Notes under the pieces: generated by a model
What the model was told of the DNA's origin: nothing
The model's input: the letters and a program-made list of their open reading frames with translations, nothing else
Databases searched by the model: none
In this document: positions 27,615 to 39,546 of the stretch, in pieces
Layout of the letters: every line of letters begins with the position of its first letter
Position numbering within the stretch: position 1 is the first letter of the stretch
Program-made: the position numbers and the translations under genes
Origin: a bacterium
GTDB taxonomy: Bacteria > UBP6 > UBA1177
DNA: 64,000 nt
Assembly: GCA_017961325.1 (NCBI GenBank)
Contig: JAGCXM010000014.1
Location: forward strand, 1-64,000
Direction of reading: 5' to 3'

Positions 27615-29611
27615 GATTTTTTCTCCCGTGAAATAAGTTCCATGACCGAATTATACTCTTTCTTGAGCTCGTATTCGGTCGTGTATCCGTTGCTTGTGAT
27701 AAGAATCCTGTCAATTTCCGCCGCAGCAGTCTTTTTGTCGAGAGCCCCTCTTTTTATAAGGATTTCAAATGCCTGAAAAATTGCCATCCTCACTTTCCAG
27801 ACCGCATCGAAATAAAGTTTTGAAAAGTGGTTTAGCAGCGTTTCAGTGTCAGTTGAAATCTGTGCTGCGGAAAGAACCGCGTCCATTCTTACTTCAAAGC
27901 ACCTGTCGGACATGTTCTTAAAAAGCGTTTCCATGAATTTTCCGAGTTCAGCGTCGTTTGTTCCGAAATGCCCCGCAAACGCAGGAATACACCTTTCAGC
28001 CGAAAAACGGGTTTCGTAATACGGATTTCCAAGCCCAGAAACTATAGCATTGAAAAGATCAGTGCGCTTGTCGCTTCCGCAGAGTGGCGTCAGCTGCTTC
28101 AATGCCGAAAAGGCGTCCCTGCTCAGAAACGGTGCACTGTTTCTGTCTGCGGCGTATCTGATTATGAGCGGAATGACTTCGGCATAGCCCAGAATTCCGG
28201 ATGAGCGGCACGCTCGCGCTCTGATGACGGGATTGTGAGACGAAAAAAGCATGTCGATTTTGTTTTTTATGAGTTTCACCTCATCCGTTTCAAGCGGTTT
28301 TCCGGCCCCCGATTTGGTTTTCTGCAAAAACTTTTCGAGCGTTGTCGAATTGAGCCCCAGAACACGGTCGTTTACAAACTCCGTTCCCTTTATTTCGGCC
28401 GGTTTTCCGCCGAGACGGCAGAGATAAAGCAGATTTTTGACGATTATTTCTGCAGGATTCCCCGGGAAAATGCTTTTCGCCGCTTCCGACATTCCGGCAA
28501 GTTTCTGCCTGTCCCCTCTGAGTTTCGAAACTGTTTCGCAGAATTCGTCCGCATCGGCGAACGCAATATTGATCCCGTTCAGAGGATCGGTCCTTTCATA
28601 GATTACTGCTGCAGCTCCGGCCCGCTCGATGAATCTTGCGTTGCCTATCTGGTGGTCGTTTCCGATGTTGCTTATCGGGATTATAACCGAAGGCTTTCCC
28701 TGGCGGCACACTTCGACGATCGAACCTGCCCCTGCACGGATGACGAGAAGATCGGACGCAGCGTAGTAAAGCCCCATGTTGTCGATGAAATCGCGTAGAA
28801 TGTATCTCTTTTCCGCATCTCCCAGATTCTGTTTTTCAAGAATTCCGGAAACATCGTTGAAACCGTGGTATTCGTAGGTTTTCCCAAAAGGCCTTCCGGC
28901 TCCGTGTATTATGTAAGTATTTGAATCTTCAAGAAGTTTCTTTGCCGAATTCGCCAGAACGCGGTTTATCGTGCGCGATCCCTGCGAACCGCCGAAAGCG
29001 AAAATCACGAAAGCGTTCTCAGGAATTCCGAGTTCATTTCTCGCCTCCTGCCTATCCTGCATCGAAATCGAGCTCCTTACCGGATAACCGGAGAAAAATC
29101 CTTTGTTTTTCGGCAGATGTCTTATCGTTTCGGAGAAGGAGACCGCAACCTTGTCCGCAGCCTTCGCGGCCGCCCTGTTCATTTTTCCCAGATCGGTGTT
29201 CGATTCGTGGATCATGATTCTGGTCCTGAAGAGTCCGAACGTCGCCCTGCGGAGCATCCACGCGGCAAAAACGGTGGGCGCGCTTACGAATCCGCCCGTT
29301 GCGAAAACTGCCGCAGGCCTGATTTTAAGCAGAAGCAGAGCCGCCTTAGAAAGCCCGAAAAACATCGTCATCGCGAATTTCAGCAGAGAAACAGGCGATT
29401 TTCCCTGAGGAAGCGGAGTGCTTTTCACGAATTTAAGCGGAATACCGACTTTGGGAACCATCGTTCCTTCGGCTTTGTTTTTAACGCCTATGTAGGTGAT
29501 ATCGGCTTCAGGCAGAGCCTTTTTGAGTTCGGCCGCAACCGCAAGCGCGGGACTTACATGACCGCCGCTGCCGCCGCCCGTGAAGACGAATTTTATCTTT
29601 TTTTCAGTCAT
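27611..29611 (-). CDS. murG: MurG glycosyltransferase fused to HEAT-like repeats
   Basis: 666 residues against about 360 for a normal MurG. Residues 1-390 are MurG: GGGSGGHVSPALAV at the start, FGGSQGS, and the UDP-GlcNAc site region GNDHQIGNARF. It adds GlcNAc to lipid I to make lipid II. After a linker comes a C-terminal region (458-666) with four HEAT-like repeats recognisable from NPVIRARACRSSGILG, NPYYETRFSAERC, CFEVRMDAVLSA and AVWKVRMAIFQA. I start it at ATG 29611. The extension could dock other cell-wall or division proteins; that is inference. Confidence 0.92.
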   Translation of the reverse strand: MTEKKIKFVFTGGGSGGHVSPALAVAAELKKALPEADITYIGVKNKAEGTMVPKVGIPLKFVKSTPLPQGKSPVSLLKFAMTMFFGLSKAALLLLKIRPAAVFATGGFVSAPTVFAAWMLRRATFGLFRTRIMIHESNTDLGKMNRAAAKAADKVAVSFSETIRHLPKNKGFFSGYPVRSSISMQDRQEARNELGIPENAFVIFAFGGSQGSRTINRVLANSAKKLLEDSNTYIIHGAGRPFGKTYEYHGFNDVSGILEKQNLGDAEKRYILRDFIDNMGLYYAASDLLVIRAGAGSIVEVCRQGKPSVIIPISNIGNDHQIGNARFIERAGAAAVIYERTDPLNGINIAFADADEFCETVSKLRGDRQKLAGMSEAAKSIFPGNPAEIIVKNLLYLCRLGGKPAEIKGTEFVNDRVLGLNSTTLEKFLQKTKSGAGKPLETDEVKLIKNKIDMLFSSHNPVIRARACRSSGILGYAEVIPLIIRYAADRNSAPFLSRDAFSALKQLTPLCGSDKRTDLFNAIVSGLGNPYYETRFSAERCIPAFAGHFGTNDAELGKFMETLFKNMSDRCFEVRMDAVLSAAQISTDTETLLNHFSKLYFDAVWKVRMAIFQAFEILIKRGALDKKTAAAEIDRILITSNGYTTEYELKKEYNSVMELISREKKS

Positions 29612-32600: not shown

Positions 32601-33677
32601 TTCAGCAACAACTTTTTCAACCGCTTCAAGCGGTTTTCCCGCTGTCGAAATGTAGGCGCTTGCAACAAGATTTCTGTTTTTATCGATCAATGCCCCCTTC
32701 GTGCTGACCGAACCGACGTCGATTCCCAGGAAAAGTGACGAAAAATCCTCAGAGTGTCCCATAATTTCTATACTCTGCGGGATTTCTTCCGCTTTCAGCG
32801 GATAGAGATCGCTTTCTTCCGCGAAATCGAAAGCCTGTGAAAAATTTCTGACGATGTCGTCAAGCAAAAATTCTTTTTCAGAGCCTCCAGTTGCGACAAG
32901 CGCCGCTCCTATCGCCCCCATCACACCGAAGTGTTCAGGAATTCTGAGCTCTTCTTCATTCAGCCCCAGAATTTCTCGGAAAGCCCTAACCACACCCTTG
33001 TTTGCGGCGACTCCGCCCTGAAAAAGTATCGGCGGTTGAGGCAGTTTTCCGCGGCACAAAGCCGAAAGATAGTTCCTTGCAAGAGAAAAGCAGAGCCCTG
33101 CGGCGATTTCATCCTTGGGAACCCCCTTCTGCTGGAGGTGAATCATGTCGGATTTCGCAAAAACGGAGCATCTTCCGGCGACGCTCGGCACGTTTTCAGC
33201 CGAAGACGCGATGTTTCCCAGTTCTTCAGTTGTCATGCCCAGTCTCTGCGCCTGCTGATCCAGAAATGCGCCGGTTCCGGCAGCGCAGAGTTCGTTGAAA
33301 GCGTGGTTTTTTAGATAGAATCTGCCGTTTTTGTCGCGGCCGACGGTTATGAACTTTGAATCCTGACCGCCGATTTCGATTATATATTTCGTTTCGGGAT
33401 AAAGCGTCCATGCGGCGGTAGCGTGGGCGACGATTTCATTCGTAACGTCAAAACCGAGCTGATCCGCTATGAGTTCCTTGCCCGAACCGGTAACGCAGAC
33501 GCCCGAAAAAACGGTTCCCTTGAAATTTTCAGCAATTTCTTCAAAAAGCGCTGCCGCAGCCTGCATGGGCCGGCCGTTCGTCCGTCGGTAATTTTCGTAA
33601 ACGATATTTTTGTTTTCATCAAGTATGACGCAGTCAAGACTGACCGAACCCAAATCAAGTCCTAAAAAGTGTTTCAT
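29697..33677 (-). CDS. Giant acyl-CoA dehydratase activase (two BcrA/BadF ATPase domains + DUF2229)
   Basis: 1326 residues. Two ASKHA ATPase domains of the BcrA/BadF/HgdC type lie in tandem (about 1-270 and 315-585), each with a DxGS phosphate loop, IIEIGGQDSKFI, and the Cys pair that holds the shared 4Fe-4S cluster in HgdC dimers (Cys131/170 and Cys440/480). The remaining 740 residues match the DUF2229 and HgdB-like region of large YjiL-type proteins. In known systems the activase injects an electron at ATP cost to reduce a radical dehydratase. The actual partner and substrate here are unknown. It lies downstream of its own promoter at 33752-33779. Its presence argues for an anaerobic lifestyle. 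Confidence 0.9.
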   Translation of the reverse strand: MKHFLGLDLGSVSLDCVILDENKNIVYENYRRTNGRPMQAAAALFEEIAENFKGTVFSGVCVTGSGKELIADQLGFDVTNEIVAHATAAWTLYPETKYIIEIGGQDSKFITVGRDKNGRFYLKNHAFNELCAAGTGAFLDQQAQRLGMTTEELGNIASSAENVPSVAGRCSVFAKSDMIHLQQKGVPKDEIAAGLCFSLARNYLSALCRGKLPQPPILFQGGVAANKGVVRAFREILGLNEEELRIPEHFGVMGAIGAALVATGGSEKEFLLDDIVRNFSQAFDFAEESDLYPLKAEEIPQSIEIMGHSEDFSSLFLGIDVGSVSTKGALIDKNRNLVASAYISTAGKPLEAVEKVVAEIRAEAPDHAPFTAVAATGSGRILAARHLNTPLALDEISAQSISCGYFFPDCDTIIEIGGQDSKFIRMKEGKINNFKMNRACAAGTGSFLEEQSNRLKISIKDDFSKLAFASFHPVKLGSRCTVFMDSDLVHHLQRGAKTEDLCAGLAYATCENYIEKVVGSSKFGENIVFQGGVAKNTAVGAVFEKLLKTKIRIHPYPEISGAIGAAIFAAEEYFSPKSAKNEAEAVNAFEIREKLLLSYLEKYDETSPNPLPEKVLAMPFALNLTEFLPFWATFFGELNYKIVLSPETDAEIVQSGLIHVPAEFCYPMKVLFGHVRTLLDKGFKRIFIPHMQFFAPPKGKHLQYACPYTQAAPYVIRENLETDAEILTIRYPVRGEEKFWVENASKTLHMPVESIEDALSKALEAQREFVEKCIEKGKEIIEKVERENGRGVVLLGRPYNTSDRHINLNIAERLCKLGISVIPTDFLPLDSEELPHLWDRVRWGYGRKLVKAARILKKHKNLGGVIVTNFGCGPDAFIDQYLEYELSDTPHLLVEFDDHRAEAGLVTRLEAFSRNFAVTDELRCEVDGDDPGKPKIPLREYTYYIPSFMDHALAISGALKASGCKVVLLPPTDDESWELGLKYAYGRECHPFISFVGDLLKAAKRPDFVPEKACYFGPSYFGACLLPQYIIAMHLILKRIGLGEVTIMNITDETNMKELGPSYLARMALGIYAIDRFFKWKTEIEPYEEEPGSVDRVYRGILSDIETGLEKGRFFKAVKRGVRALKAVRLTPKAGTRPKIGVVGDVYTRINTHSNGRLFENLKNMGFEVWPSCSMIDLTFMALELKSDDFLKEGKKFRSFLAKGAFPAVRMCRHLIDRYFPDTVRTPQERDLNFIKKTVGKRIDITIDRALTLNLSRIGELHEAKADGILNVMCHNCMLRTVTESLTPALRHEMGDIPICTLVYEGLHSTHNRNRLEAFAHQVKSK

Positions 33678-33751
33678 GTTTTACCTGCAAAACAATCCGT
33701 AAATCGACTCCCCGCATTCGGACGGGATTTTCCCGACTCCGCAAACGGCAG

Positions 33752-33779
33752 ATTATAATGCAACTTCAACTGATTTGAA
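33752..33779 (-). promoter_or_regulatory. Promoter of the activase gene
   Basis: Minus strand: -35 TTCAAA (33779-33774), a 16-base spacer, -10 TATAAT (33757-33752). The -10 box is perfect and the -35 box is weaker. Confidence 0.4.
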
Positions 33780-33838
33780 TGTTTTCACTTCTTCGGATTA
33801 TTCAAAGTCAAAAATTTTTCTTATCTTCAATAATTCCG

Positions 33839-34057
33839 ATGAATTGTTCCAAGATCTGCCGTAAAGACAAAATCATCCCCATAGAAGTTAAATCGTCAGG
33901 CTACAAAACCCATAAGTCATTGGATTTATTCTGCGAAAAATTCTCTTCAAGAATCGGTGAAAAATTCTGCTTTATACAAAAGATTATCAGAAAGACGGCG
34001 AAGTTCTTTGTATTCCCGCTTATTTTGCGTGGATATTGTGATTTTGTTATTTATTAG
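33839..34057 (+). pseudogene. C-terminal remnant of a DUF4143 AAA ATPase
   Basis: The frame reads a string typical of the end of DUF4143-type AAA ATPases: IPIEVKSSGYKTHKSLDLFC, followed by FSSRIGEKF, a basic KK/RK region and FPLILRG. Intact members are about 400 residues, and only the last 60-70 residues survive here. No start with a ribosome binding site, Walker motif or upstream remainder is found. It lies between the activase promoter and the AT-rich module and marks a past rearrangement. The rest of 33678-34067 holds only the activase promoter. Confidence 0.6.
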
Positions 34058-34067
34058 CGATGGGATG

Positions 34068-35606
34068 TTACCTATAATGTTTTATGCTTGACAAAGATAC
34101 TGTTATTTTCATTGATTTCTCTTCTATCAATTCTTCCAATTGAAGTTTGTTTGTTTCCTGATCAGGACATTTTGGACCAAGCATTATCTCTTCAAGTTTC
34201 AACGGAAATTTATCAAGACCAATATCCATGTAGGGATTTAATATATTTGTTCCGTTTGCAAGCAGCCATTCTTGGTCATATACCTGCCACTTACATTTAT
34301 CTACTATGTATAATAGCCTAATCTCAGACTCGACATTCCAGTCTTCAGATTTTATAAAATGGCACCATTTATGAAGTGTTCTAAAAACAAATTTATAATC
34401 CGTAAGACTATGGACATGCCGTACCAAATCTTTTAATTGCTTGATTATTGATTCATATTCCCCGTCAACATATTTTATTTTTTGAAGAAAAAATCCTGCC
34501 CCATTCAGTTTATTTTTATCCGGGGCAAATTTCAAACAGACTCCTTTTGCATCATCGCCATATAATCGCCACTGTGTCAAATCATCATTTTTGTTTACGC
34601 TGCAAGAAAGTATAAATATGTTATTTACTTCAGAATTTGCCCTTGCGCTTCCATACAGAATTTTTTCTATATAATCGGTTTCTGATTTATCATTCATCCC
34701 TGCAAGACCAGACATACGTATTTTACCGCATTTTAACATTTCAAATACAGACTTTAGTGAGGTATATCTGTAAACAGTTCCGTTAAAATCTTCAAATTTG
34801 AAAAGTTTTTGTATCCTATCGTATTCTTCATCCTGATTTTTTAGAAACACATTTCCATTTTCACCATCAATAGAGAAAGCACAGTTTTTAAAATAAGTGA
34901 AATCATGTTCAATATAGTCTTTGATTAGTTCCGTCTTGTCTACTTCTTTGACAGCTCGTATAAACTCATCATATGTTACATCATATTTATCACATGTTTC
35001 ATTACATTTGGATCTTTTATAAAAATTATAATTATTCCCGTCTGTTATTACGGCAAATTCCGCTTTCGCATTATTAACCTTATCATTGACTTTTTTTTCT
35101 ACAATAGCCCATTGATCATCATGAAGATTTTTTTCCACAACCTCTATAATGCAATGAGGATATCCTTTAGGGTTCATTATTGTAGCACTGGGATGATCAA
35201 TACTGACATAATTTCTTACCAATTTGCATTTAGACCCGGACAAAGACCTTTCAAACTTTGACAAGACATAATCTTCCAGCATTTTATATTCTTGTTCAAG
35301 TTCCCCTAGAATCTCTTTCATGATTTGCTCGTATTCTTTTTTTTTGAATCTTTTTTGACCAGATTTAAAAAACGAATAATCTGTAGCATTAGTTATTACG
35401 GTAAATCTTGCTTCGCTCTTGATATATGGTGGCTTAAGTTCTTTCACAACTTGTATAGCACATATGGTATCGTTCCCCATCTTTATTATTATTTTGTTCC
35501 TACTTTTCTTTATATACTGAAATCTTCTTTTAGTTCTGTAGTTAGCCGTTGACAAAGAAATCTCTAGCTTTTCTACAACTTTTTCTGTGTTTTTTGAAAG
35601 ACTCAT
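34068..35606 (-). CDS. DUF2971-like protein with two N-terminal repeat domains
   Basis: 512 residues. The C-terminal half (about 278-480) matches DUF2971: YRYTSLKS, then GMNDKSE (303-309), then LTQWRLYGDDAKGVCL (344-358). The N-terminal half contains a duplicated unit (about 47-100 and 150-222) with matching phrases ARFTVITNATDYSFFK and AEFAVITDGNNYNFYK, reminiscent of the 'TNG-x-W' strand in HsdR_N / PD-(D/E)xK-like domains but without a clear catalytic set. It is AT-rich (19 of 60 G/C in 35041-35100). It begins 18 bases after the upstream TIR/DUF4062-like gene with AGGGGAA as binding site. A conflict or defence role is inferred from context; no function is known. Confidence 0.7.
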   Translation of the reverse strand: MSLSKNTEKVVEKLEISLSTANYRTKRRFQYIKKSRNKIIIKMGNDTICAIQVVKELKPPYIKSEARFTVITNATDYSFFKSGQKRFKKKEYEQIMKEILGELEQEYKMLEDYVLSKFERSLSGSKCKLVRNYVSIDHPSATIMNPKGYPHCIIEVVEKNLHDDQWAIVEKKVNDKVNNAKAEFAVITDGNNYNFYKRSKCNETCDKYDVTYDEFIRAVKEVDKTELIKDYIEHDFTYFKNCAFSIDGENGNVFLKNQDEEYDRIQKLFKFEDFNGTVYRYTSLKSVFEMLKCGKIRMSGLAGMNDKSETDYIEKILYGSARANSEVNNIFILSCSVNKNDDLTQWRLYGDDAKGVCLKFAPDKNKLNGAGFFLQKIKYVDGEYESIIKQLKDLVRHVHSLTDYKFVFRTLHKWCHFIKSEDWNVESEIRLLYIVDKCKWQVYDQEWLLANGTNILNPYMDIGLDKFPLKLEEIMLGPKCPDQETNKLQLEELIEEKSMKITVSLSSIKHYR

Positions 35607-35624
35607 ATTTTTCAGTTCCCCTAA

Positions 35625-36599
35625 CTACTTGCTTCTGTTGTCCCATTCAAAAGCTATGCTGGATTCCGCAGAAATATTTTCAAACATCAATAAGATCGTG
35701 TCTTTGCCGAATTCAACTTTTTTTACAAAACCTTCTCTATCAGGCTTATATACCGGCTCACCTTTTCTGTATTTTTCAATGTCCTCAGTGTTAAAACCGT
35801 TAAAGCGTACAACACAAAGCAAATTTTCTGTAAAATAAGGAATATGATATCCTACACCACCTTTCTCTGGCGACAAAGTTTGAGAGACTTCCATTTCTGC
35901 CTCAAAAATAAATTCTTGTTTTTCAAATTCAGCTTCATATTCCAATATTCGTTTTCTACCTTCAAATTGATCTTTATTCAAAATTTTAATTCCGCGCTCT
36001 TCAATTTTATGGCTGGACGTTAGAATTTCCCCTGAGGTAGCCGATACACGATCTCTATAGTATCGATCAGGGGAAAAAACTTTTGAACACACATTGTATG
36101 TTAGTGTAACCTTGTCGTCATTTGTTTTTACTTTCTCCACATCAATTTTTACCAGAGTGCTTTTTATATTAGTTACAGGGTTAAAATCATCAAAAGCACA
36201 AATATCGCATGTCAGGTAAAACCCGAATTCTTCTTTGGAACATATTCTGTAATTATTTTGTTCTAATTTAATTTTCTTATTTTGATCAATAATGTAATAT
36301 AGGATATGTTTGTTTGCATTAATTCCATCAATTTTTGTTTCAATCTTTGACGGTTCTTCTTTCGAAAAACAAATCGCTATTGCCAAATCTGCATTTTCAA
36401 ATCTGCGTTTTGAATCCTCGTTGAGATCCTGTTGTGTCACAGTCACAGGAGATTCATCAAAAAACAAAAATTTCTTTCTGTCATTTGAGTATCTTTCATT
36501 CCACTTATTTAAAACATTCCTAACTGTTTCAATTTCATCTGAGATCTTTTCAGGCAATGAAGTAATCAAAACAATACTAAAACCTTTTCCAACAAACAT
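35625..36599 (-). CDS. Unknown protein with TIR/DUF4062-like N-terminal domain
   Basis: 324 residues. I chose the second ATG (36599) because GGAG lies six bases upstream; the first ATG (36611) has no site. Residues 7-105 resemble the Rossmann-like TIR/DUF4062 group: IVLITSLPEKISDEIETV, then LNKWNERY, then ENADLAIAIC and NKHILYYIID, matching the pattern 'S..sDl.eEr..v..vi..WN...aDl.Iai...gk.v.lY'. The usual GT-x-x-EI signature is weak, so catalysis is doubtful. The C-terminal 200 residues are beta-rich and unrecognised. Base composition is AT-rich like its partner. It is the first gene of a two-gene operon with the DUF2971 protein. Confidence 0.6.
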   Translation of the reverse strand: MFVGKGFSIVLITSLPEKISDEIETVRNVLNKWNERYSNDRKKFLFFDESPVTVTQQDLNEDSKRRFENADLAIAICFSKEEPSKIETKIDGINANKHILYYIIDQNKKIKLEQNNYRICSKEEFGFYLTCDICAFDDFNPVTNIKSTLVKIDVEKVKTNDDKVTLTYNVCSKVFSPDRYYRDRVSATSGEILTSSHKIEERGIKILNKDQFEGRKRILEYEAEFEKQEFIFEAEMEVSQTLSPEKGGVGYHIPYFTENLLCVVRFNGFNTEDIEKYRKGEPVYKPDREGFVKKVEFGKDTILLMFENISAESSIAFEWDNRSK

Positions 36600-36634
36600 A
36601 CCGGTCTCCATTTATAAAAAATCTATTGCGAGTT

Positions 36635-36662
36635 ACGATACGAAGATGAGAGAAAAAGTCAA
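36635..36662 (-). promoter_or_regulatory. Promoter of the two-gene module
   Basis: Minus strand: -35 TTGACT (36662-36657), a 16-base spacer, -10 TATCGT (36640-36635). The rest of the 222-base divergent gap to lpxA also holds a 6-bp inverted repeat (TCTCAT 36767-36772, ATGAGA 36782-36787) that could be an operator. Confidence 0.5.
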
Positions 36663-36833
36663 TAATTTTTCATCCTTGCATCGACATTTTATTAGAAATC
36701 TTGACCACTTGCATATATAGATTATTATCATGCTGCTGAAATTGTATGTTTTAAATTCAAACATCGTCTCATCTAATTATTATGAGATAATGTTTTATTT
36801 TAACAAAACGATATGTTATACGAGGTTTGATTT

Positions 36834-37781
36834 ATGCTAGTACATTCAACCGCAATAATTCACGAAGGTGCCGTTTTGGGTGCTGATTGTGAAATCGGTC
36901 CAAATTGCATTGTTGGTCCGAACGTCGTTTTGGGCGACAGAGTAAAATTAATTTCTAATGTTGTTGTTGATGGAAGAACAACAATTGGTGATGATTCAAT
37001 CGTATATCCGTTTGCCGTTCTTGGCTTGATAGGTCAGGATTTAAAATGGCAGGATGAAAACTCAATGACTGGTCTTACTATTGGTAAACGGTGCCGCATT
37101 CGTGAATATGTGACGATTCATTCCGGAACACCGGCGTCTGACGGAACAACAATCGGTGACGATTGCCAAATCATGGCTCAGGCACATGTTGCTCATGATT
37201 GCAACATCGGAAACAATGTAGTCTTGTCTAATTTGGTTCAAGTCGCCGGACATGTCAAAATTGAAGATTTCGCAACACTTTCTGCCGGTGTTATGGTATT
37301 GCAGTTCTCACATATCGGGAGAAACTCATTTATCACAGCTATGTCACGCGTAACCAATGACGTGCTGCCATATGCCATATATGAGGGTGATTCCCACGCC
37401 GAATATCGCACGATAAACCGTATCGGGTTGAGACGTCATGGATTCACGACAAAAGATATGCATGCGATTCACGCTGTTTATAATGCGGTATTTTCCTGCA
37501 CGGAAAGCGTGCTTTCCGAACGCTTGACCAAAATGCGTGAAGAGGTTAAAAATAAATACGCACTGGATGCAATAGACTTTATTGAAAATCGTTCTAATAA
37601 AGGCAACTTAATAATCCACACCATTAGCAGAAAAACATTTTTAAAATTATCAGCAGATTTTATTAGCTGTTTTTTCCATAATTCCGTCAAACCGCTCTTA
37701 CACCGTTTCATGAATGTTTTCAGCTATTTTCTTGGTAAAAGTCTATTCATTCCGAAAAAGCCGTCAAAAGGATCTATTTAG
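36834..37781 (+). CDS. lpxA: UDP-N-acetylglucosamine acyltransferase LpxA, C-terminally extended
   Basis: 315 residues; typical LpxA is about 260. It folds as a left-handed beta-helix of hexapeptide repeats (IGxNCxIGxNV and similar). The catalytic His is predicted as His121 in AHVAHDCNIG, and the family's HSGT appears at 96-99. It adds the first acyl chain in lipid A synthesis, so the organism should have LPS-type lipids. About 50 extra residues at the C-terminus are hydrophobic and basic (SADFISCFFHNSV, FSYFLGKSLFIPKK), perhaps a membrane-associating tail. No other lpx or fab gene is adjacent. The gene converges with recD, seven bases apart, and borders the AT-rich module. Confidence 0.9.
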   Translation: MLVHSTAIIHEGAVLGADCEIGPNCIVGPNVVLGDRVKLISNVVVDGRTTIGDDSIVYPFAVLGLIGQDLKWQDENSMTGLTIGKRCRIREYVTIHSGTPASDGTTIGDDCQIMAQAHVAHDCNIGNNVVLSNLVQVAGHVKIEDFATLSAGVMVLQFSHIGRNSFITAMSRVTNDVLPYAIYEGDSHAEYRTINRIGLRRHGFTTKDMHAIHAVYNAVFSCTESVLSERLTKMREEVKNKYALDAIDFIENRSNKGNLIIHTISRKTFLKLSADFISCFFHNSVKPLLHRFMNVFSYFLGKSLFIPKKPSKGSI

Positions 37782-37788
37782 ACGGTTT

Positions 37789-39546
37789 TCACGAATTCAA
37801 CGCCTCTTCAAAACCGCTGTTCCGTTCGGCATTTCTTCTCAAAGTGTAGTCCAGAACGCCGTCTTTTGCAGCGATTTTCACCTCTTTTTTCGCGCGGGTA
37901 ACGGCGGTGTAGAGAATTTCCTTCGTAAGAATCGGCATCTCCGTTTTAGGCAGAACGATCAGGACGGAATCGTATTCGCTCCCCTGACTTTTGTGAATCG
38001 TCATGGCATAGACCGTTTCAAAAGAAACAAGAGAAGAAATATTAAACGATTTCAGCGAGTTACCCACGATAAAATATGCCGATTTCCTGCCATTTCTCTC
38101 TAGAATCACGCCGCAGTCGCCGTTCATAAGGTTGTTCCTGTAATCGTTTTTCGTCACCATTATCGGCATTCCGTCGTACAAACCGTTTTCCGAATTTCTG
38201 CCCAGTTCCGACTCTATTTTTCTGTTCAATTCCGTTACGCCGAAACTGTCTTCTTTTGAAGGAACCAGCACTTTGTAATCATTAAGTCTTTCAAGAATTT
38301 CTTCCGGAGAAGAGTCTTTGTCGAAAAGGAATCCGTATCTTCCGGCGGCATCAAAAGCGATGTTTTCAAGAGCCTTTTCGTTCTCGATTCCAAACCATCC
38401 GCAGTCGCTTTCCGTTTTGCAGATTTCTATGATTTCCTTCGCGCTTTTCTGTTCGTTCACCGCTTTCGCAAGCTTTCCTATGCCCGAACTACTATTGAAC
38501 CTGTAACTTTTTTCGAGTTTGGCGACGATTTCAGGCGGAAGAAGATTCTTTTCCGCTGCACCGCATATATCGGAAAGGACATTGCCCGCACCGACACTCG
38601 CCAGCTGATCCTTGTCACCGAGCAGAATCAGCGAAGCATCATGCCCCAGAGCGTCAAGCAGCGAATTGAAAAGGGCGACATCGAGCATTCCGGCCTCGTC
38701 GATGATTACTACGTCTGCGGCAAGCGGGTTTTCCCTGTTCTGCGAAAATCTGCCAAATTTCCAGTCCAGCATTCTGTGAATCGTCATTCCCTCGAGTGCT
38801 CCGATTCCGTCAAGAATTTCACTCCGTGCGGCATCCGAAATCCTTCTGATCCCGGAAACGGCGTTTTTCAGCGCGTCGGTCATCCGCGCCGCAGCCTTTC
38901 CTGTGGGAGCCGCAAGCATCACCCGGTCTTGCGGAAAAAGCGTCGCGATTCCGATCAGGATTTTTGCGATAATCGTTGTTTTTCCCGTTCCCGGACCGCC
39001 CGTTATGACCGAAAAACGGTTTTTTACTGCGGTTTTCGCGGCCTCGTGCTGTTCGGAATTTTCTGCATCAAAAAGTTTGTTGAAAATTTTTTCCATTTCA
39101 TCCGAAGATCCGGAATACCGTCCGTTTTCCTTAGATATTTCCGCCATTTTCGCGGCGAGTGAACTTTCGTAAAGCCAGTATTTGTAAAAATAAATCCCGT
39201 TTTTCAAAGAAACCAGCGGTCTGAACTCCTCTTCAGGTTTTCCCGTGCAGCACGAACTTTTTCCGAAAATTTCCGCCACTTTTTCAAAGCTGAAACCGGG
39301 CAGATATTTCATCAGTTCCGCGTTTTTTTCGGCGAATTCCGAAATATCCTTTTCGACAAGGCATATCTTCCCGCCTGCGACACCGTTTGAAACAAGAGCC
39401 GTAACTGCCGCGAAAAACGTTTTTTCGTTTTCGGAAAGATTTCTTTCAAGCGAAACCAGAAACTCGGCAAGATGCACGTCGGTTGCAGAAACCAGCCCCT
39501 TTTCCGACATTTCGGCCAATATTCCGATACTTTTTCCGCAAATCAT
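37789..39546 (-). CDS. recD: RecBCD helicase subunit RecD
   Basis: 585 residues, a superfamily 1B 5'-to-3' helicase. Walker A GGPGTGKT is at 183-190, VVIIDEAGMLD is the Walker B region, and TIHKSQGSEYDSVLIVLP is motif V near the end. RecD is the fast motor of RecBCD in double-strand-break repair and foreign-DNA degradation. Its ATG overlaps the recB stop (ATGA at 39543-39546), so the two are translationally coupled. No recC is found in the window. Confidence 0.95.
   Translation of the reverse strand: MICGKSIGILAEMSEKGLVSATDVHLAEFLVSLERNLSENEKTFFAAVTALVSNGVAGGKICLVEKDISEFAEKNAELMKYLPGFSFEKVAEIFGKSSCCTGKPEEEFRPLVSLKNGIYFYKYWLYESSLAAKMAEISKENGRYSGSSDEMEKIFNKLFDAENSEQHEAAKTAVKNRFSVITGGPGTGKTTIIAKILIGIATLFPQDRVMLAAPTGKAAARMTDALKNAVSGIRRISDAARSEILDGIGALEGMTIHRMLDWKFGRFSQNRENPLAADVVIIDEAGMLDVALFNSLLDALGHDASLILLGDKDQLASVGAGNVLSDICGAAEKNLLPPEIVAKLEKSYRFNSSSGIGKLAKAVNEQKSAKEIIEICKTESDCGWFGIENEKALENIAFDAAGRYGFLFDKDSSPEEILERLNDYKVLVPSKEDSFGVTELNRKIESELGRNSENGLYDGMPIMVTKNDYRNNLMNGDCGVILERNGRKSAYFIVGNSLKSFNISSLVSFETVYAMTIHKSQGSEYDSVLIVLPKTEMPILTKEILYTAVTRAKKEVKIAAKDGVLDYTLRRNAERNSGFEEALNS

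Follow-up and report, generated by a model that had tools for sequence, protein, structure and literature searches.

A putative two-gene conflict module, built of a degenerate DUF4062/TIR-like protein and a DUF2971 protein, within an AT-rich insert behind recD

Two adjacent genes in the 64,000-nucleotide stretch of bacterial DNA analysed here (the window) are far richer in A/T than their surroundings, and their neighbours, apart from lpxA, are housekeeping genes. The question is how this pair came to lie there and what its two products could do together. The elements on which the argument turns are the following.

33678-37788: AT-rich insert of 4.1 kb, GC 0.344, between recD and an activase gene
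36611-35625, minus strand: gene 1, 328 aa, with a degenerate DUF4062/TIR-like domain and a beta-rich C-terminal domain
35606-34068, minus strand: gene 2, 512 aa, with two HsdR_N-like units and DUF2971
36662-36635, minus strand: apparent promoter of the pair, TTGACT-16-TATCGT (site match plus a conserved 62-bp upstream stretch)
36834-37781, plus strand: orphan lpxA, divergent from the pair and inside the insert (NCBIfam PRK05289, 288 bits; TIGR01852, 276 bits; both above cut-off)

The two genes are co-directional, and our ORF calls agree with the spacing of 18 bp given by an earlier reading made from the letters of the DNA alone (the sequence-only reading). That reading had also described the pair as foreign in composition, and its counts of 19 G/C out of 60 in 35041-35100 and 31 out of 60 in 29041-29100 proved exact when recounted. 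The GC content of the pair is 0.323 (GC3 0.27-0.28), to be compared with a mean of 0.470 (sd 0.019, minimum 0.432) in 549 pair-sized windows taken outside the insert. The pair thus lies about 8 sd below the mean of windows of its own size, showing that its low GC is not a matter of chance. The extent first proposed, 34068-36611, is right for the pair, but the accessory insert is larger and includes lpxA.

The borders of this insert emerge from comparison with congeners. In four of them (G004, G006, G007 and G014) recD overlaps by 4 bp the gene for a 1326-aa CoA-dehydratase-activase-like protein, and in the window these two genes are parted by 33678-37788. Four genomes (G001, G002, G009 and G013) carry another gene, of ~320 aa, after recD, and the closest relative by RecD (G008, 67%) has different genes there. 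Overall, the genes that follow recD differ in G001, G002, G008, G009, G012 and G013 (loci L091-L103). Since these genes differ among congeners, the site is variable and the content of the window at this point is, on these comparisons, an accessory insert. This suggests that the post-recD site is an insertion-prone spot in the genus. The search for terminal repeats of the insert yielded just chance-level 12-mers, and an Rfam search of 33000-38500 gave zero RNA matches. We also tested the ORF at 33779-34057 as a remnant of a DUF4143 ATPase, which was unsupported.

The same pair is found, in the same order, in the congener G004, with 35% identity for gene 1 and 51% for gene 2 and with a 4-bp overlap between the genes. 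This second copy sits at a different, non-orthologous locus between lpxC and lpxA, and on the far side of lpxA come type I restriction genes; homologues are hence not confined to a fixed housekeeping context, the outcome that would have spoken against the sequence-only reading. No further copy of the pair was recovered from the 386 genomes, viral contigs, phages or plasmids searched, so that two complete copies are known and conservation rests on one comparison. Scans of viral contigs with either protein, and of phages and plasmids with gene 1, gave no match. A two-gene operon on accessory DNA, with overlapping genes in one of its copies, could also be a toxin-antitoxin or selfish addiction pair in which gene 2 is the toxin and gene 1 neutralises it. 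We hold this to be unlikely, since gene 1 exceeds typical antitoxins in size and complexity and its domains are of sensor/effector types.

The conservation between both copies extends upstream. Sites of the TTGACT-16-TATCGT type are at background frequency in the region (20, against 17±4.3 in shuffled sequence). The 62-bp stretch that adjoins gene 1 on its upstream side, however, has 76% identity with its counterpart in G004 (E 8e-6). Because of this conservation the pair appears to carry its own promoter, as had been proposed, although it is the upstream comparison and not the site match that backs the proposal. An imperfect 13-bp inverted repeat (AACATCGTCTCAT / ATGAGATAATGTT), a possible operator, lies at 36760-36794, in the gap from which lpxA and the pair are read in opposite directions.

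Gene 1 divides into two parts.

36240-36596, minus strand: gene 1 residues 6-124, DUF4062/TIR-like domain lacking the catalytic loop LGTPT..SGTVEE (hhalign 96.8%, E 2e-10, and alignment)
35628-36185, minus strand: gene 1 residues 143-328, beta-rich domain (alignment; 3 clear matches in 386 genomes)

Taken alone, gene 1 gives no significant single-sequence match in Pfam, NCBIfam or PADLOC, Pfam DUF4062 included. A profile of gene 1 and its relatives, on the other hand, finds the N-terminus of a 436-aa protein of G012 (E 7.7e-12), whose plasmid relatives include proteins annotated as DUF4062, one of them, from Synechococcus, at 47% identity. When a profile of the window and G004 copies of gene 1 was compared by hhalign with an alignment of seven DUF4062 members, the N-terminal 144 residues gave the match listed above, and two controls, the beta-rich domain and DUF2971, reached 0.5% and 0.2%. 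The TIR/DUF4062 likeness claimed by the sequence-only reading therefore stands, and the absence of any such relation, which would have undone it, is not what we observe. A profile search of solved structures with DUF4062 gave just a weak match to KpSwz.

What does not stand is the reading of the domain as an active enzyme by its family name. DUF4062 was recently reported as a family of TIR-like NADases that act against phages by depleting NAD+ and need a catalytic glutamate, E97; in Swarozyc the DUF4062 NADase is triggered by the phage portal (PMC13174449). In the DUF4062 relatives the loop LG[TS]xT..SG[TS]vEE has its S, G and E invariant in 7/7 sequences; in both copies of gene 1 the loop that holds the catalytic Glu is deleted. 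With this loop missing, gene 1 is predicted to be NADase-dead, and probably is so. It could be argued that gene 1, as a relative of a portal-activated NADase, is itself still the executioner, as in Swarozyc, and is regulated by gene 2; an acidic residue of non-canonical type, close to where the loop is missing, would then do the catalysis. The loop is however missing from both copies, and the Glu of the window protein nearest to the gap is a Lys in G004, which makes this alternative quite improbable. If the loss is read as we propose, gene 1 would illustrate that a TIR-like immune domain can be kept after loss of its NADase site.

The DUF4062 protein of G012 (L105 7677-13786), in which the SGSVEE motif is intact and which matches PADLOC PDC-S60 at 7.6e-22, adjoins a type ISP restriction enzyme, and a DUF4062 relative from Enterococcus is near Qat defence genes.

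The C-terminal 185 residues of gene 1 form a separate domain, predicted to be beta-rich from a low-confidence model. This domain occurs in only 3/386 genomes: that of the window, G004 and G014. In G014 it is a standalone protein of 225 aa, and the next two genes encode a single-TM protein of 61 aa and an LPO_1073/Vpar_1526 protein (NCBIfam 3e-27). Pairing with different partner genes indicates, as far as these three genomes go, that the domain is modular and exchangeable between partners, as expected of a sensor or adaptor. The three genes of G014 form a cassette (L011 9355-11273) that is as AT-rich as the pair and is inserted between lipoprotein paralogues. The single-sequence AlphaFold model of gene 1 (pLDDT 40.6) is too low in confidence for a fold search, and profile searches against solved structures turned up nothing usable as a fold for either the beta-rich domain or DUF2971. 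A pYEATS hint for the beta-rich domain (E 0.016-0.044) is below cut-off and was not relied on.

Gene 2 has three parts.

35295-35606, minus strand: gene 2 residues 1-104, first HsdR_N-like unit (0/1000 shuffles reach the self-alignment score)
34872-35294, minus strand: gene 2 residues 105-245, second HsdR_N-like unit (HSDR_N_2 E 0.0095 at residues 142-205; PD_DExK 0.005)
34071-34781, minus strand: gene 2 residues ~276-512, DUF2971 (Pfam 1.4e-6, PDC-S31 1.7e-9, phrog_1762 1.7e-20)

The DUF2971 assignment made from the letters alone is borne out by Pfam PF11185 (30 bits, above the cut-off of 22, and 35 bits in the genome search), by PADLOC PDC-S31 (model PDLC04990) and by phrog_1762; the G004 copy of gene 2 does not reach 0.01 against PDC-S31. 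All residues that are invariant in a six-sequence alignment of DUF2971 (ND..E, D....W..Y, K......E.E.R, P and G) are kept in gene 2, so that by alignment the domain looks intact. A structure model of DUF2971 from a four-row alignment had a pLDDT of 38.7, too low for a fold search. Its motifs recall those of ADP-ribosyltransferase-like folds, a resemblance from which we make no claim. In the open literature searched we found no described function for DUF2971, only one incidental mention.

The N-terminal duplication of gene 2 is clear (Smith-Waterman score of 61, against 29±5 in shuffles), as the sequence-only reading had it, and the G004 copy has a single HsdR_N-like unit. The likeness to HsdR_N itself is weak (16.5 bits for HSDR_N_2, whose cut-off is 25) and does not make the units active enzymes by their family name: the ExK motif is absent from both, and no helicase family was matched in gene 2 by scans of Pfam and NCBIfam. 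The units would serve for binding or as structural parts, and not as nucleases.

Relatives of the DUF2971 domain are found repeatedly among genes of biological conflict. On a Segatella copri plasmid the neighbours are a NACHT protein and a Gabija-like AAA-ATPase/UvrD pair; on a plasmid of Rhizobium etli they are a CBASS cyclase and its pore-forming effector; and on a viral contig the neighbour is what we read from the sequence as a KAP-like NTPase. A Streptococcus satellite phage carries another relative. An E. coli plasmid has its copy between conjugation genes, not defence genes. The genome of the window holds a second DUF2971 gene (on contig C14), which matches PDC-S31 at 1.7e-24. Together with the restriction and Qat neighbours of DUF4062 relatives, these contexts agree with the claim that both domain types recur in conflict loci. 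On the Segatella plasmid (L106 5233-11954) the DUF2971 protein has a different N-terminal half and lies directly upstream of the NACHT gene, and the same plasmid has a gene with a TIR-looking stretch and no Pfam match. The second DUF2971 gene of the window's own genome shares its locus, an island of defence type (L013, 110-8594 of G000:C14), with an HsdS fragment, two TIR-domain proteins and HsdR.

The remaining gene of the insert, lpxA, follows the pair in an unexpected way. A full-length lpxA homologue is present in 2/28 genomes of the phylum, precisely those with the pair, a coincidence with a chance of 1 in 378 if presence is random. Both LpxA proteins are 77% identical over residues 1-255, and the best outside relative found for the LpxA of the window, from a Rickettsiales MAG, is 59% identical to it. 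The pair and lpxA are adjacent in both genomes, which makes their linkage firm. Only one of the 28 genomes, G004, has lpxC, next to the pair and lpxA, and lpxB is above cut-off in 0/28. The last ~60 residues of the window LpxA match neither the G004 nor the Rickettsiales protein. The tail of lpxA and gene 2 of G004 share an AT-rich match of 24 bp, which we judged to be low-complexity chance.

This association could mean that the pair is no defence system but an accessory to a cassette for envelope or nucleotide-sugar metabolism that is linked to lpxA. Yet the relative orientation of the pair and lpxA differs between both genomes (head-to-head in the window, tail-to-tail in G004), their composition differs too (0.41 for lpxA, 0.32 for the pair), and the relatives of DUF2971 and DUF4062 found elsewhere lie among defence genes, not lpx genes, so that we give this explanation little credence. 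We treat lpxA as co-transferred cargo, as two cases cannot establish a function; its travelling with the pair in a lineage without a lipid A pathway is an odd but checkable lead. As for the pair being decaying accessory DNA without present function, the degenerate active sites of two domains and the few copies would fit, but this is very improbable: both ORFs are full-length, and the promoter region and the DUF2971 residues are conserved while protein identity is 35-51%. Such conservation between two species suggests instead that the pair is under purifying selection.

Our preferred reading, to which we give an even chance, is that the pair is a putative conflict module of two genes, gained by horizontal transfer and directed most likely against phages, with gene 1 as the sensor or scaffold that controls the DUF2971 effector of gene 2. 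Against it stand the housekeeping neighbours of the pair in the window and the linked lpxA, which is no defence gene. The domain types and contexts behind the defence role proposed in the sequence-only reading have held up, and the role itself we still infer from them, from the foreign composition and from the surroundings of relatives. In the mechanism that we envisage, the TIR-like (DUF4062) domain of gene 1, its NADase loop lost, probably serves assembly or partner binding, and the lineage-specific beta-rich domain probably recognises the trigger. The degenerate HsdR_N-like units of gene 2 probably contact nucleic acid or gene 1, and DUF2971, as the effector, probably carries a toxic or enzymatic activity. 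Infection would then release or activate this activity, and the cell would stop. Complex formation, trigger and DUF2971 activity are, like defence, what we infer from the domains. A bolder version, which we regard as doubtful, is that of a new immune system: an exchangeable sensor, joined to a catalytically dead TIR-like (DUF4062) scaffold, controls the DUF2971 effector, and LpxA is possibly a functional third component in a phylum without lipid A. The module is compact and testable, its two genes keeping a likely sensor/scaffold apart from a likely DUF2971 effector; if the bolder version is true, DUF2971 would gain its first defined role.

Comparison with known systems places the pair among, and apart from, several of them. 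It resembles the G014 cassette in its beta-rich domain and in being a small AT-rich accessory cassette, but that cassette has no TIR-like domain and no DUF2971, and has a 61-aa TM protein. With the N-terminus of type I restriction HsdR, the two repeated units of gene 2 share a weak sequence resemblance, but they are below the Pfam cut-off and come with neither ExK motif nor helicase motor. PADLOC PDC-S31 groups single-gene defence candidates with DUF2971 and is a phage-defence candidate only, without mechanism; gene 2 shares with it a DUF2971 with conserved polar residues, and differs in being fused to two HsdR_N-like units and paired with gene 1. No Thoeris or CBASS partner (a ThsA-like or cyclase gene) was found within the insert. 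As in Swarozyc, a DUF4062/TIR-like domain stands at the N-terminus with an auxiliary domain behind it, and the pair is accessory and horizontally spread. In contrast to Swarozyc, gene 1 lacks the catalytic Glu loop, its auxiliary domain has no family match above cut-off, and it is coupled to a second gene with DUF2971. As the catalytic Glu is absent, the pair is not a Swarozyc member. In its way of working it may nonetheless resemble other TIR-scaffold systems, and we file it among the two-gene TIR-related defence modules.
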